Of a stretch of 21,680 bases of DNA, positions 13,488-21,680 are shown piece by piece (within the stretch, counting starts at the first letter, position 1; each line of letters opens with the position of its first letter). The notes under the pieces are model-generated. The model was not told the DNA's origin. It ran no database searches and saw only the letters and a program-made list of their open reading frames with translations. A program made the translations under genes and the position numbers. Origin of the DNA: a virus; the IMG/VR virus record IMGVR_UViG_3300025108_000439, positions 1-21,680 of that record; one strand, given 5' to 3'.

Positions 13488-14594
13488 TTAGAATTTATGA
13501 GTATCACGTCTATCGCGTTTAGTCACCTGGTCTATCTCCCATTGGTGGAGTTTGTTTATAGAAGCATTTATTTCTGCAACAAGTCTCTTGGGAAGTCTTG
13601 ATTGGAGTCCTGGATGTGCAAAGTTTCTTTTTACAGAAAAGGATCTAGCAAAGAACCAAGGATCTTTTACTTGTTCGCATAACAGGTCTGTGAGTTTATC
13701 CATCTCGGCAGAGCCATGTGCAATCTTAGGATTCTGTCTAAGAAAGTTATACATCTCCACTTCGGGTGCCAGCCAGTCTTCGAAATTTACTTTCCAGTTT
13801 TGTGGATTCTCTAATGCTAAAGGATCTTGTAAAAAAGAACGTGGCATTTCTCTTTGCAAAACTTTAAACATGTCATGGCCCGGTTGGCCAATTTGGTCTC
13901 TTATCCCATGTTTCTTAGGAGTGTTCCAGCGATTAACTTCTTCACGTTCCTCGCCAATGTGTAACTTATTTGTTGTATACTCAGTCCAATTTCTCAAGTC
14001 TATGAACTCTACATTTGCTTGTTGGTTGAAGTATGGCGTTAATGCAACTACTGTTAATACTGGATCTAAATGGTTTTCACCAAATGTATAATCTATATAC
14101 GGCTTCTGGCTATCTGAATATACTGTATTTTTTATTGTTCTTACAAAGTTCTGCCACACATACATTTGCCTCGTTCTGTGAGCGGCTGTATCTTCAGTTA
14201 ACGGAAACATTGCTTCAATTTCTTCCTTGCCGCCGTTGTGATAGTAAGGATCCATAGTGCTTTCTGTTGCTGACTTTATATCCCAATCATGATTAATCAT
14301 AATTAGACCAGAGCAGTATCTATGCATAGGATCTCTAATACAGAACTTTATGTTGTTATGTTTTATTTCAGCATATGAACCAAAGTTAACTAGAGTACCT
14401 TCAGTAGGACACCATTCAGCAAAACTATGCTCTTGCATATCAAGTGTTATGCCTCTAATTAGTTCATGGTGATATGATGATTGATCTGCGTCTGTTAACG
14501 AGTTTATATAAGAACTTGCATTACGTTTGAATAATCCCCAAGTCTCTAAAGTTTTGCCTGTTTGTTTATCTCTTAGGTGAAAATATGATATCAT
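13488..14594 (-). CDS. Sulfotransferase-like protein (368 aa)
   Basis: The ATG at 14594 has an AAAGGAC site about 12 bases upstream and a GATAAATA late promoter on the - strand. Near residues 84-100 is FCIRDPMHRYCSGLIMI, which resembles the 3'-phosphate binding strand of PAPS-dependent sulfotransferases (R-D-P-x-x-R-x-x-S-G). Further on, YTFGENHLDP (about 169-178) and VEFIDLRN (about 195-202) recall later segments of phage and bacterial sulfotransferase-like proteins. I do not see a clear N-terminal PK.G(T/S)-type 5'-phosphosulfate loop, so activity is uncertain and the family call is tentative. It runs against its neighbours and is expressed late, which would suit modification of a virion or cell-surface component. 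Confidence 0.85.
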   Translation of the reverse strand: MISYFHLRDKQTGKTLETWGLFKRNASSYINSLTDADQSSYHHELIRGITLDMQEHSFAEWCPTEGTLVNFGSYAEIKHNNIKFCIRDPMHRYCSGLIMINHDWDIKSATESTMDPYYHNGGKEEIEAMFPLTEDTAAHRTRQMYVWQNFVRTIKNTVYSDSQKPYIDYTFGENHLDPVLTVVALTPYFNQQANVEFIDLRNWTEYTTNKLHIGEEREEVNRWNTPKKHGIRDQIGQPGHDMFKVLQREMPRSFLQDPLALENPQNWKVNFEDWLAPEVEMYNFLRQNPKIAHGSAEMDKLTDLLCEQVKDPWFFARSFSVKRNFAHPGLQSRLPKRLVAEINASINKLHQWEIDQVTKRDRRDTHKF

Positions 14595-16388: not shown

Positions 16389-19079
16389 ATGAGTTACGTT
16401 GATGCATTCTATGATAAGAACAAAGACATTGTAAGAACTGTTGAGCGTGTCAATGGTGAAAGAATTTATGTTGACCATCGTCCAGAATACAATTTTTTTG
16501 TTGCTGATCCTAAAGGTAGTCACACTAGTGTCTATGGTGAAAAGGTTACAGAGATAAGATGTAAAAGCAACAAAGAGTTTCGCAAGAACGTTGCAATTAA
16601 TACGCACAACAAAAAGTTTGAAAGTGATGTTCGACCACTAAACAAAACAATAGCAAAGCATTACAATGGTGCTGAGCAACCTATACTACAAACAGCATTC
16701 CTTGATATTGAGGTAGACTTCGATCCTGAGAGAGGCTACAGTTCTCCCGAAGATGCATTTATGGAAATTACTTCTGTAGGAGTCTACTTACAATGGATGG
16801 ATGCTATGGTATGTTTGGCTGTTCCACCTAAGACATTAAGTTGGGGACAAGCTCAAAGCATAGCAAGTAAGATGCCTGAAGTTGTGCTGTTTAAAACAGA
16901 AAAAGAAATGCTGAAAACGTTCTTAGAACTTATTGATGATGCTGATGTGCTAAGTGGATGGAACTCAGAAGGTTATGATATTCCTTATCTAGTAAACAGG
17001 ATCGTAAAAACATTAGGCAAGGCAGAAACAAGAAAGTTATGCTTGTTTGATCAGTTTCCAAAGCAAAGAACATATGAAGCATTTGGTAGCGAACGTGAGA
17101 CATATGACTTAGTAGGGCGTGTACACTTAGACTATATGCAGTTGTACAGGAAGTATAACTATGAAGAGCGACACAGTTACAGACTAGACTATATTGGTGA
17201 GATGGAAGTAGGCGAGAAGAAAGTTGCTTATGAAGGCTCACTAGATAGACTTTACAATCACGACTTTGAAAAGTTCTTAGAATACAACATACAAGACGTT
17301 ATGTTGCTAGACAAAATGGATAAGAAGTTACAGTTCATTGACCTAGCAAATACTATTGCACATGATAATACTGTACTGCTACCCACTACAATGGGTGCTG
17401 TAGCAACTACTGAACAAGCAATTATCAACGAAGCACATAGACGTAACATGGTTGTGCCAGACAGGAAAAAGTATTCTAAAGACAAAGAGAACACACAGGC
17501 GGCTGGTGCCTATGTGGCTTTCCCCAAGAAAGGCTTTCACAAATGGATAGGCAGTATGGACTTAAACAGTCTATATCCTAGTGTGTTTAGAGCATTGAAC
17601 ATGGGGCAAGAAACAGTAGTAGGACAACTTCGTCCGGACTATACTGATCAAGAAATTAACGATAAGGTAACTTTAGAAAAGAAATCTTTTGCTGATGCTT
17701 GGTTAGGCAAGTTTGGTAGTAACGAATATGAAATGACAATGGCCAAAGATGTTGATCATACATTGCATCTTGACATGGAAGATGGCTCATCAGTAGAAGT
17801 AACAGGAGCAGATGTATATAACTTAATATTCAACTCCGGTCAGCCTTGGAATATTAGTGCAAACGGTACTATATTTAAGACAGACTTCCAAGGTATTGTA
17901 CCTGGGTTGTTGGAGAGATGGTATGCTGAGAGAAAAGAACTACAGGCTAAAAAGAAACAAGCAACTACACCAGAGGAAATTGCTTTTTGGGATAAAAGAC
18001 AGCTCGTTAAGAAAATTAACCTCAATAGTTTATATGGTGCTATTCTTAACCCTGGTTGCCGCTTCTTTGATAAACGTATTGGACAATCCACTACGCTCAC
18101 AGGTAGAGCAATCACGAAACACATGGGAGCAGAAACAAACAAAATGCTCACAGGAGTGTACGACCACACAGGAGAAACAATAGTTTATGGTGACACTGAC
18201 TCTGTTTACTTTAGTGCCACACCTGCATTGCCAAAAGGTGAGGACTTAGATATGGATAGTGCAATTAAATTGTATGATCATATATCAGACACAGTCAGTG
18301 ACACATTTCCTAAGTTTCTAAACAAAGCATTTAACATTCCGCTTAGTGCTGGTGCTGTTATGATTGCTGGTAGAGAAGTAGTTGGCAAGAGCGGTTTGTT
18401 TATTACTAAGAAGCGTTATGCAATCAAGTGTTTAGACATTGAAGGGTACCAACCTGAGGGTGGTAAACTAAAAATTATGGGCATGGATATCAAGCGAAGT
18501 GATACGCCCGAGTTTGTGCAGGACTTTTTAGAAGAAGTATTAGACAACGCACTTGATGGTATGAGCGAAGACGAAGTTATACAAAAGATAAAAGACTTCA
18601 AGGATGACTTTAGGGCAATGGAACCTTGGAAGAAAGGTATGCCTAAACGTGTAAACAACTTAACCACATATGGTGAGAAACTTAACAAACAAAGACGTAT
18701 GAGTGCAACACACACAAAACTGCGTAAACTAGACGCACTAAAGCCTAAAGAGAATACAATGATACCTGGGCATGTTAGAGCAAGTATCAATTACAATGAG
18801 GCTAGAGAAGCCTTTAGCGATGCATACAGTATGGCTATCATGGACGGTATGAAAGTTATTGTGTGCAAACTAAAAAGTAATGCACTAGGCTATACAAGTA
18901 TTGCATACCCAACAGACGAAATGCATATACCTGCTTGGTTCAAAGAGATGCCGTTCGATGAAGAAGCAATGGAAGAGAGTGTGCTAAACAAAAAGATTAA
19001 TAATGTGTTAGGTGCTATGGGTTGGGACTTAACTAGAATGAACGAAAGCAAAGTACTAGGTACTTTCTTTGAACTATAG
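16389..19079 (+). CDS. 43: DNA polymerase, family B, T4 gp43-like (896 aa)
   Basis: The length is almost that of T4 gp43 (898) and the motifs are in the right order. The 3'-5' exonuclease has Exo I FLDIEVD (D106, E108), Exo II WNSEGYD (D197) and Exo III YNIQD (Y299, D303). The polymerase has motif A MDLNSLYPS (D391), motif B KKINLNSLYG (541-550) and motif C YGDTDS (600-605, D602 and D604). All catalytic acids are present, so both synthesis and proofreading should work. It is the replicative polymerase and would act with the clamp encoded at 19833. A consensus sigma70 promoter lies so close to the ATG that the mRNA is probably leaderless; only a weak AGG precedes the ATG. In T4, gp43 represses its own translation by binding a leader hairpin; such a leader cannot exist on this short transcript. 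Confidence 0.98.
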   Translation: MSYVDAFYDKNKDIVRTVERVNGERIYVDHRPEYNFFVADPKGSHTSVYGEKVTEIRCKSNKEFRKNVAINTHNKKFESDVRPLNKTIAKHYNGAEQPILQTAFLDIEVDFDPERGYSSPEDAFMEITSVGVYLQWMDAMVCLAVPPKTLSWGQAQSIASKMPEVVLFKTEKEMLKTFLELIDDADVLSGWNSEGYDIPYLVNRIVKTLGKAETRKLCLFDQFPKQRTYEAFGSERETYDLVGRVHLDYMQLYRKYNYEERHSYRLDYIGEMEVGEKKVAYEGSLDRLYNHDFEKFLEYNIQDVMLLDKMDKKLQFIDLANTIAHDNTVLLPTTMGAVATTEQAIINEAHRRNMVVPDRKKYSKDKENTQAAGAYVAFPKKGFHKWIGSMDLNSLYPSVFRALNMGQETVVGQLRPDYTDQEINDKVTLEKKSFADAWLGKFGSNEYEMTMAKDVDHTLHLDMEDGSSVEVTGADVYNLIFNSGQPWNISANGTIFKTDFQGIVPGLLERWYAERKELQAKKKQATTPEEIAFWDKRQLVKKINLNSLYGAILNPGCRFFDKRIGQSTTLTGRAITKHMGAETNKMLTGVYDHTGETIVYGDTDSVYFSATPALPKGEDLDMDSAIKLYDHISDTVSDTFPKFLNKAFNIPLSAGAVMIAGREVVGKSGLFITKKRYAIKCLDIEGYQPEGGKLKIMGMDIKRSDTPEFVQDFLEEVLDNALDGMSEDEVIQKIKDFKDDFRAMEPWKKGMPKRVNNLTTYGEKLNKQRRMSATHTKLRKLDALKPKENTMIPGHVRASINYNEAREAFSDAYSMAIMDGMKVIVCKLKSNALGYTSIAYPTDEMHIPAWFKEMPFDEEAMEESVLNKKINNVLGAMGWDLTRMNESKVLGTFFEL

Positions 19080-19832: not shown

Positions 19833-20591
19833 ATGAGCGGGAATAATTATATCAAGGACACACTAAAAGATGTGTTAAAGCATACGCACAACTTAGGCAT
19901 CTTTGAGATGGTTAAAGTTACAGGAACTGCAACGGAGACTAGTATTGAAACAGTCGATGCAGATAAAACTGTTATCTTCAAAGGCAAAACAGTTAATCCT
20001 GTCCCTGACTTTGTTGATGCAACTGTAGGTTTAAGCAGAATGAATGTGCTAGATGGGTACTTGAAGTATCCAGACTTTGATGATGCTGATGCTACAGTAC
20101 AAGTTGTTAAGCAGGACCGTAATGGTGTTGATGTACCAACTGAAGTAGAGTTTATATCACAAGCAGGTACAGATGCACATTATAGATTTATGTTAGCAGA
20201 CGTTGTTAACCAGCAACTTAAAGAGATTAAGTTTAAAGGTGCAGAGTTTGATATTAACATTGTGCCTAGTGCAAAGAACTTAAAAGACTTAGGATATTTT
20301 AATGGTGTGCTTAGTCAGTTCGAAAGTACATTTAGTCCAAGAACAGAAGATGGCAAACTGTATTTTTATATAGGTGATGCCGGTGGTGACAGAACTAAGA
20401 TTTTAGTTAACGAAGCACCCGACGGTACAATGACACATGAGTTTCATTGGCCACTAGACATCGTGCTAAGAATACTTAGACTCGGTGACAATGCAAATTG
20501 TGTATTAAGCATTAATGCTAAAGGATTACTACAGATTATTGTAGACAGTGGTATTGGGACATACACATACTTACTACCTGCGAAGAACTAA
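19833..20591 (+). CDS. 45: Probable DNA polymerase sliding clamp (gp45-like), 252 aa
   Basis: The ATG at 19833 has a CAGGAG site (about 19821-19826). The product is close in size to T4 gp45 (228). The N-terminus (YIKDTLKDVLKHTHNLGIFE) resembles the opening helix of phage clamps. VDATVGLSRMNVLDGYLKYP at about 62-81 corresponds to the D-L-N-x-F-L-G-x-L segment. The C-terminal part (NCVLSINAKGLLQIIVDSGI, then TYTYLLPA) has the beta pattern that closes clamp domains. The clamp would ring the DNA and tether gp43; in T4 it also activates late transcription, which fits the many late promoters here. The position just downstream of the polymerase group supports the call. Overall similarity to gp45 is low by eye. 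Confidence 0.88.
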   Translation: MSGNNYIKDTLKDVLKHTHNLGIFEMVKVTGTATETSIETVDADKTVIFKGKTVNPVPDFVDATVGLSRMNVLDGYLKYPDFDDADATVQVVKQDRNGVDVPTEVEFISQAGTDAHYRFMLADVVNQQLKEIKFKGAEFDINIVPSAKNLKDLGYFNGVLSQFESTFSPRTEDGKLYFYIGDAGGDRTKILVNEAPDGTMTHEFHWPLDIVLRILRLGDNANCVLSINAKGLLQIIVDSGIGTYTYLLPAKN

Positions 20592-20594
20592 TTT

Positions 20595-21680
20595 ATGGAT
20601 GACTTAGGAAAAAAACAACGAGATTATGCAGTCTATCTGCCTGCTGTTAGTAGTTTCTATACTAAGCAGTTAGACAAGATAGTTAATAAAGTACCCGAAA
20701 AGTCTCGGGTGCCTGCAGGTTTCGAACATGGTAATGAAGGTCTCGACTTCTTTAAAGATGAGAACTCTTACTTTCATTATCCATATGGCTTATACTCAGC
20801 CGGTCATGCTCATTTAGATATTACTAAGAGCCATGCTGATGAGCCAATGATACAAGAGCGAGATAGAAATACAGTTAAAGTATTACTAGGCGACTCAGGT
20901 GGATTCCAGATAGCAACAGGTGTTATGAAAATGGATTGGGCAAATGCTAAAGATCCTAATGACCCTGCCAGGACAGCAATCTGTGAAAAGATATTACGTT
21001 GGTTAGAGCATACAGCAGACTGGAGTATGACATTAGACATTCCAGCCTTTGCGGCAGTAGAGCCTCTAAGTAGCAAAACAGGACTAACAGAATTTTCTGA
21101 TACATTGGATATCAGTTTACTTAATTTAGATTACTTTGTACGCAACCGTGTTCCGGGTGCAACAAAGTTTCTAAACGTACTCTCAGGCACAGACGAAGCA
21201 ACGTCTAAAGAATGGTATGAGGCAGTTAAACACTTCTCTGATCCTACTTTTTGTGCTGAAGGTTACGGGGAGGCTAGCAGGGCACTCGAAGGTTACGCCT
21301 TTGCTGGTATTAACATGAAGGACCTTAGTTGTGTTCTAAACCGACTACTTGACCTACGAGCTGACGGCTTGCTGGAAGGAAAGGATTGGATACATTTCTT
21401 AGGTACTGGTAAACTACAATGGGCCTGTTTCTTAACTGCTATTCAGAGACAGTTGCGATTGTATGATAACCCGAACATCACGTTGAGCTTCGATGCCGCC
21501 TCCCCATTCGTTAACACCGCATATGGTCAAACTTATGCACATAACTTCTTTGAGCCAGGTAAGTTTGGATACTTTATGGACAGAGCGTTTGATCAACAAG
21601 CATTAGTAGGCAGTGACTTACCTGCTCCGTTTGGGCATAGTCCTGTGATGGAAAGGCTCACAATGGGCGACTTATGTACA
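20595..21680 (+). CDS. TGT/DpdA-like guanine transglycosylase superfamily protein, 3' partial
   Basis: A frame opens at ATG 20595, 3 bases after the clamp stop, and continues past the right edge (362 codons visible). There is no strong ribosome binding site, so it may be translationally coupled. Its landmarks match the queuine tRNA-ribosyltransferase fold in order: LLGDSGGFQIATG at 97-109 (D100-S-G-G-F-Q105), WSMTLDIPAF at 143-152 (D148), EGYAFAGIN at 232-240 (the GGLAVGE position), HFLGTGKLQW at 267-276 (the YLMGVG position), and LSFDAASPFVNTAYGQ at 297-312, where D300 fits the catalytic nucleophile of the FDCVxPTRxxRxG motif. The usual C-x-C-x2-C zinc site, expected roughly 40 residues after that motif, is not seen by the window end. 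Such enzymes exchange guanine for a 7-deazaguanine in tRNA; the phage DpdA relatives act on DNA. Which applies here is unknown. Confidence 0.85.
   Translation, partial: MDDLGKKQRDYAVYLPAVSSFYTKQLDKIVNKVPEKSRVPAGFEHGNEGLDFFKDENSYFHYPYGLYSAGHAHLDITKSHADEPMIQERDRNTVKVLLGDSGGFQIATGVMKMDWANAKDPNDPARTAICEKILRWLEHTADWSMTLDIPAFAAVEPLSSKTGLTEFSDTLDISLLNLDYFVRNRVPGATKFLNVLSGTDEATSKEWYEAVKHFSDPTFCAEGYGEASRALEGYAFAGINMKDLSCVLNRLLDLRADGLLEGKDWIHFLGTGKLQWACFLTAIQRQLRLYDNPNITLSFDAASPFVNTAYGQTYAHNFFEPGKFGYFMDRAFDQQALVGSDLPAPFGHSPVMERLTMGDLCT

Follow-up and report, generated by a model that had tools for sequence, protein, structure and literature searches.

The window analysed here is an entire virus record of 21,680 bases. 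An ATG at position 20595 opens a forward reading frame that continues for 362 codons, without a stop, to the last base (20595–21680, + strand); because the window is the whole record, the gene is cut short where the contig stops. A second contig, L006, is 99.94% identical to the window over 6,775 bases ending at the window's last base and continues beyond it, giving a complete gene of 521 amino acids (L006 5690–7255). We annotate the window frame as the 5′ part of a putative TGT/DpdA-like guanine transglycosylase gene, based on the open frame, the L006 overlap and the fold match of a predicted structure to tRNA-guanine transglycosylase (TGT). The window is otherwise mostly forward-coded, with a 368-aa reverse-strand ORF (13488–14594) that has no Pfam match and overlaps forward ORFs.

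Neighbouring genes were counted in 94 non-redundant loci. A family B DNA polymerase gene lies upstream (16389–19079, + strand; PF00136, 2.8e-36) and was present in 89 loci. In Paride this gene is in two parts with a homing endonuclease gene between them (L002 5611–10837), and the second half gives a weak intein-splicing match. The gene directly upstream of the transglycosylase gene (19833–20591, + strand) encodes about 245–252 residues, is conserved in 92 of 94 loci and belongs to phrog_12062, whose function is unknown. A sequence-only reading of the window had called it a sliding clamp. That assignment is unsupported: the protein has no Pfam or PDB match, and hhalign against T4 gp45 gave a probability of only 1.0. 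In PA5oct, the gene at this position is listed as structural on mass-spectrometric evidence.

Conserved downstream are an ORF of ~ 174 aa (78/94), a 129-aa ORF (71/94) and a GT-B-like glycosyltransferase gene (59/94), with FolE (37/94) and QueE (32/94) farther on, the latter two counts being limited by flank length. The 174-aa ORF (L010 11758–12264) yields a confident model (pLDDT 91.4), but no solved structure resembles it at E ≤ 0.001. The 129-aa ORF (phrog_17812; L010 13318–13698, L002 14769–15143) has conserved HxH and SCE...E motifs and the look of a QueD-like T-fold, but hhalign gave a probability of 0.1, and it is at most a possible QueD relative. The glycosyltransferase gene is the next gene downstream in Paride (L002 13623–14681) and in L010 (14108–15301) is followed by nucleotide-sugar epimerase and phosphoribosyltransferase genes. 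The glycosyltransferase may decorate a modified base with sugar or do unrelated work at the host surface.

Active-site residues and predicted fold

The proposal of a guanine transglycosylase had started from five TGT landmarks. All five are at the positions claimed, and a set of residues is invariant in an alignment of 43 diverse phage relatives (the others 35–76% identical to the first sequence), which argues against chance. The residues invariant in 43/43 are D100, S101, G103, Q105, D148, P150, G198, G233, H267, L269, G270, D300 and S303. In the first landmark, DSGGFQ (aa 100–105; 20892–20909, + strand), the D, S, G103 and Q are also invariant in 52/52 bacterial homologues, and hhalign places D100 opposite D89 of Escherichia coli TGT and D76 of DpdA2 from Vibrio phage nt-1. 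The second, TLDIP (aa 146–150), contains D148 (21036–21038, + strand) at the position of the base-recognition Asp; it aligns with E. coli TGT D143, falls near nt-1 DpdA2 D112 and is likewise conserved in all 52 bacterial sequences. GINMKD (aa 238–243) and FLGTGK (aa 268–273) follow on the same strand, the latter overlapping an H267-F-L-G270 segment (21393–21404, + strand) that aligns with HMLG of DpdA2 and YLMG of TGT. The last, SFDAASP (aa 298–304; 21486–21506, + strand), holds D300 (21492–21494), which falls opposite D266 of DpdA2 and D264 of E. coli TGT, is kept in 51 of the 52 bacterial homologues and is a candidate catalytic nucleophile judging from these alignments. The placement of D100, D148 and D300 opposite the catalytic positions of TGT and DpdA2 in profile alignments backs the landmarks.

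The family alignments and hhalign put S197-G198 (21183–21188, + strand) at the IIQG position of TGT; residue 197 is Ser in 22 and Gln in 21 of the phage sequences and Gln in 51/52 bacterial homologues. On sequence grounds this split is a candidate difference in the substrate pocket and may mark different substrates. The zinc-binding CxCxxC motif of TGT had been reported missing from the visible part of the gene. We find that this holds, and that it extends to all 43 full-length phage sequences.

An AlphaFold2 model built from the 43-sequence alignment had a mean pLDDT of 92.3 and a pTM of 0.91. A PDB search with this model gave 15 matches at E ≤ 0.001, every one of them a tRNA-guanine transglycosylase (probability 1.00), with the enzyme from Zymomonas mobilis (2bbf) the best, and the next four were also TGT or QTRT2 structures; the first 19 places are thus all TGTs. 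TM-scores were moderate, about 0.4–0.5. Among viral models in BFVD, the matches included nt-1 DpdA2 (E 8e-9) and a Motura protein annotated as a tRNA guanine transglycosylase. The sequence-only reading had staked its case on a TGT barrel, and that is the predicted fold; in the model, D100, D148 and D300 lie at or just past barrel strands, as they do in TGT.

No sequence-level match to the family was found in Pfam, PHROGs, NCBIfam or PDB chains. The Pfam TGT domain (PF01702) matched 0/25 records, a failure that does not discriminate because the known DpdA phages nt-1 and 9g fail too. In profile comparison by hhalign, the probability against a seven-member DpdA2 set was 94% with the phage members and 97% with phage and bacterial members combined, and column-shuffled control profiles gave at most 1.3%. 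With just one E. coli TGT sequence on the other side, the combined profile scored 56%, again pairing D100, D148 and D300 with D89, D143 and D264. Given the TGT-type fold and the aligned active site, we place the family in the TGT superfamily with DpdA2 as its nearest characterised relative.

These results bear on two alternatives. Xylanases and other barrels do occur lower in the PDB list, so the landmarks could be a chance likeness in some unrelated TIM barrel, a glycosidase for instance. We give this practically no weight: TGTs fill the first 19 places, motifs and catalytic residues align in order, and the gene is linked to QueE and FolE; the model and the DpdA2 profile match have already largely refuted it. 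The protein might instead keep the TGT fold without exchanging bases, for example by binding 7-deazaguanine or working in the manner of a DNA glycosylase. TGT paralogues without catalytic activity are known, the PDB matches include QTRT2, and the Gln of IIQG is replaced by Ser in half of the phage members. We nevertheless regard this as very improbable, since the nucleophile and the general-acid Asp are invariant in the phage sequences and kept in all but one bacterial member, and searches of these genomes turned up no second transglycosylase.

Relation to known transglycosylases

DpdA2, known from Vibrio phage nt-1 (YP_008125322), KVP40, pf16 and ACP17, is likewise a phage-encoded member of the TGT superfamily found with FolE and QueE. 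It shares the order of motifs with the new family (D-S-G-G-[LF]-Q, D-x-P/DEIP, H-x-LG, S-[FY]-D-[AS]-[AS]). However, we saw no BLAST-level similarity between the two (13 versus 70 phage records), neither profile recovers the other's phages, and QueC is present in nt-1 and comparable phages but mostly absent from phages with the new family. Against phrog_10773, which represents DpdA2, the best E-value was 0.13, from the member in Vibrio phage 2.275.O; the similarity is distant and seen only from profile to profile. Virions of nt-1, which encodes this DpdA2, have dPreQ0 in their DNA (PMC6884629; PMC12028318).

The other known enzymes are farther away. DpdA1 of phage 9g and its relatives shares the proposed reaction, and 9g dpdA adjoins a clamp gene and folE/queD/gat-queC, but 9g DpdA has DSGAFS and is ~ 200 aa shorter than the new family, and hhalign gave probabilities of 0.2–1.2, i.e. 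no detectable similarity. Bacterial DpdA (NCBIfam NF041059), also a DNA transglycosylase of the TGT superfamily, resides on bacterial genomic islands; it was absent from the families listed for 28 members of the phage family and exceeded the cut-off in 1 of 14 bacterial genomes bearing homologues (Sphingobium lactosutens, on another contig). Compared with bacterial TGT, the new family lacks the zinc site, differs in its C-terminal region and falls below detection by the Pfam TGT model.

We found no name for the family in the literature examined. Two further subfamilies, DpdA3 and DpdA4, were reportedly defined by Cui et al in 2023, DpdA3 for Campylobacter phages. No protein of CP220, reportedly a DpdA3 phage, matched the new-family profile. 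The best reading of the sequence comparisons is that of a probably new, unannotated DpdA-type subfamily.

A tRNA-guanine transglycosylase that alters host or phage tRNAs, with FolE, QueD and QueE feeding tRNA queuosine and not DNA modification, would also agree with some of these observations: tRNA TGTs are the best matches among solved structures, and queuosine in tRNA uses the same precursor pathway. We consider it improbable. The zinc motif is absent from 43/43 members, DpdA2 exceeds TGT in profile similarity (97 versus 56, the TGT side being a single sequence), and the gene stands near a replicative polymerase. In addition, Pseudomonas aeruginosa and similar hosts encode their own TGT. A transglycosylase acting on DNA is therefore preferred over one acting on tRNA because of the missing zinc site, the similarity to the DpdA2 of nt-1, with its dPreQ0, and the polymerase alongside.

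7-Deazaguanine synthesis genes in the carrier phages

The sequence-only reading had stated that the window holds no genes for preQ0 synthesis. This is correct, and it is explained by the window ending inside the transglycosylase gene: in its close relatives, FolE and QueE lie 3–9 kb downstream, past the position at which the window ends. Where the downstream flank reached at least 8.5 kb, QueE was found in 21/31 loci and FolE in 17/31, whereas 0/33 upstream flanks of at least 8.5 kb contained either.

We then searched, over their whole length, 22 larger records carrying the transglycosylase gene (19 IMG/VR contigs plus Paride, Phosso and 2.275.O). The suggestion that folE, queD, queE or queC might be found outside the window proved right in these relatives for FolE and QueE and in part for QueD: QueE was present in 22/22 records, FolE in 18 and QueD in 11. 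QueC was nearly absent, being convincing in a single record, Vibrio phage 2.275.O; one other record gave a match that passed the cut-off but was weak and partial. QueF, too, exceeded the cut-off only in 2.275.O, where the transglycosylase gene precedes queF, yhhQ, queC and folE homologues. The genomes of Paride and Phosso, both deposited as complete, encode FolE, QueD and QueE and lack QueC. Near folE, Paride also has two QueD-like (PTPS) genes with a ClpX-like gene between them (OR805295 39822–43260); one of the two may have diverged as a paralogue and serve a different function.

No DpdA2 homologue was detected in the 22 records and no DpdA1 homologue in the 12 tested, while the positive controls nt-1 and 9g were detected. 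As several of the 22 records are fragments, gene absences in those count as weak evidence. With DpdA1 and DpdA2 missing, the new family is the sole transglycosylase candidate in these records. The proposal that the phage modifies guanines through a DpdA-like enzyme is thus supported by the profile similarity to DpdA2, the linkage to QueE and FolE and the absence of DpdA1 and DpdA2. Where it speaks of preQ0, we would now say CDG or preQ0: the 7-deazaguanine pathway is there, but QueC is missing from all records bar one.

Proposed reaction and reach of the family

Our preferred reading, which we hold with considerable confidence, is a TGT-superfamily guanine transglycosylase that inserts a 7-deazaguanine into DNA and forms a new DpdA-type subfamily distantly related to DpdA2. 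DNA as the target, the identity of the base and the biological role are what we infer from the evidence above. By analogy with TGT, D300 would attack C1′ of deoxyguanosine and guanine would leave with D100 as the acid/base partner, a role that the alignment also suggests. A free 7-deazaguanine, held by D148 and a pocket of Q105, G198 and G233, would then be joined in guanine's place. The phage's own FolE, QueE and, in some cases, QueD would supply the base through a pathway leading to CDG. The inserted base could be CDG itself (the QueE product), a CDG derivative, or preQ0 finished by a host QueC; the choice is left at these three because QueC is missing from nearly all of these genomes. The likely benefit is that phage DNA is disguised and resists host restriction enzymes.

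Relatives occur at no fewer than 567 places in IMG/VR, and the family is common in giant (jumbo) phages and metagenomic phages. Deposited phages with the gene are eleven records of the PA5oct/Paride group, Phosso and 2.275.O, in all of which it is called a "hypothetical protein"; a scan with the 2.275.O protein as query found no further members. A scan of bacterial genomes returned 62 loci. Six resemble phage contigs in MAGs, with FolE near four of them. The others are mainly proteobacterial (25–43% identity), and homologues with intact catalytic Asp residues occur in Shinella, Rhizobium, Sphingobium, Novosphingobium, Azospirillum, Limnohabitans and others (L193–L248); D100, like D148, is present in all 52 that were aligned. 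A tyrosine recombinase is encoded near 34/56 bacterial homologues and a Vut_1/YhhQ-like transporter near 9, and in 35/38 cases the homologue adjoins a large ORF (≥ 450 aa) without a confident Pfam domain. These loci may represent a genomic-island module for DNA modification or defence that has so far gone undescribed. A broader version of this idea, to which we give a minor share of credence, is that the family is a superfamily branch of its own, common to jumbo phages and bacterial islands. The phage enzyme would then insert CDG or a base derived from it, to which the neighbouring glycosyltransferase and nucleotide-sugar epimerase might add a sugar, giving a glycosylated 7-deazaguanine in DNA. 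Its bacterial counterpart, found with the large neighbouring ORF, an integrase and in some cases a YhhQ-type transporter, would belong to a distinct DNA-modification or defence module that is as yet undescribed.

On our preferred reading, the family provides a candidate transglycosylase for phages equipped with 7-deazaguanine genes in which no DpdA is recognised; Hutinet et al (2019; PMC6884629) expressly allowed that such enzymes might have escaped detection. It is nameless in Pfam, PHROGs and NCBIfam though frequent in metagenomic phages. Among its carriers, the Pseudomonas phages PA5oct and Paride are available as isolates (Paride can replicate on dormant cells), which makes virion DNA accessible, and the absence of QueC predicts that an unusual base would be found there. 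The chromosomal cousins, for their part, suggest a second bacterial use of transglycosylase chemistry.
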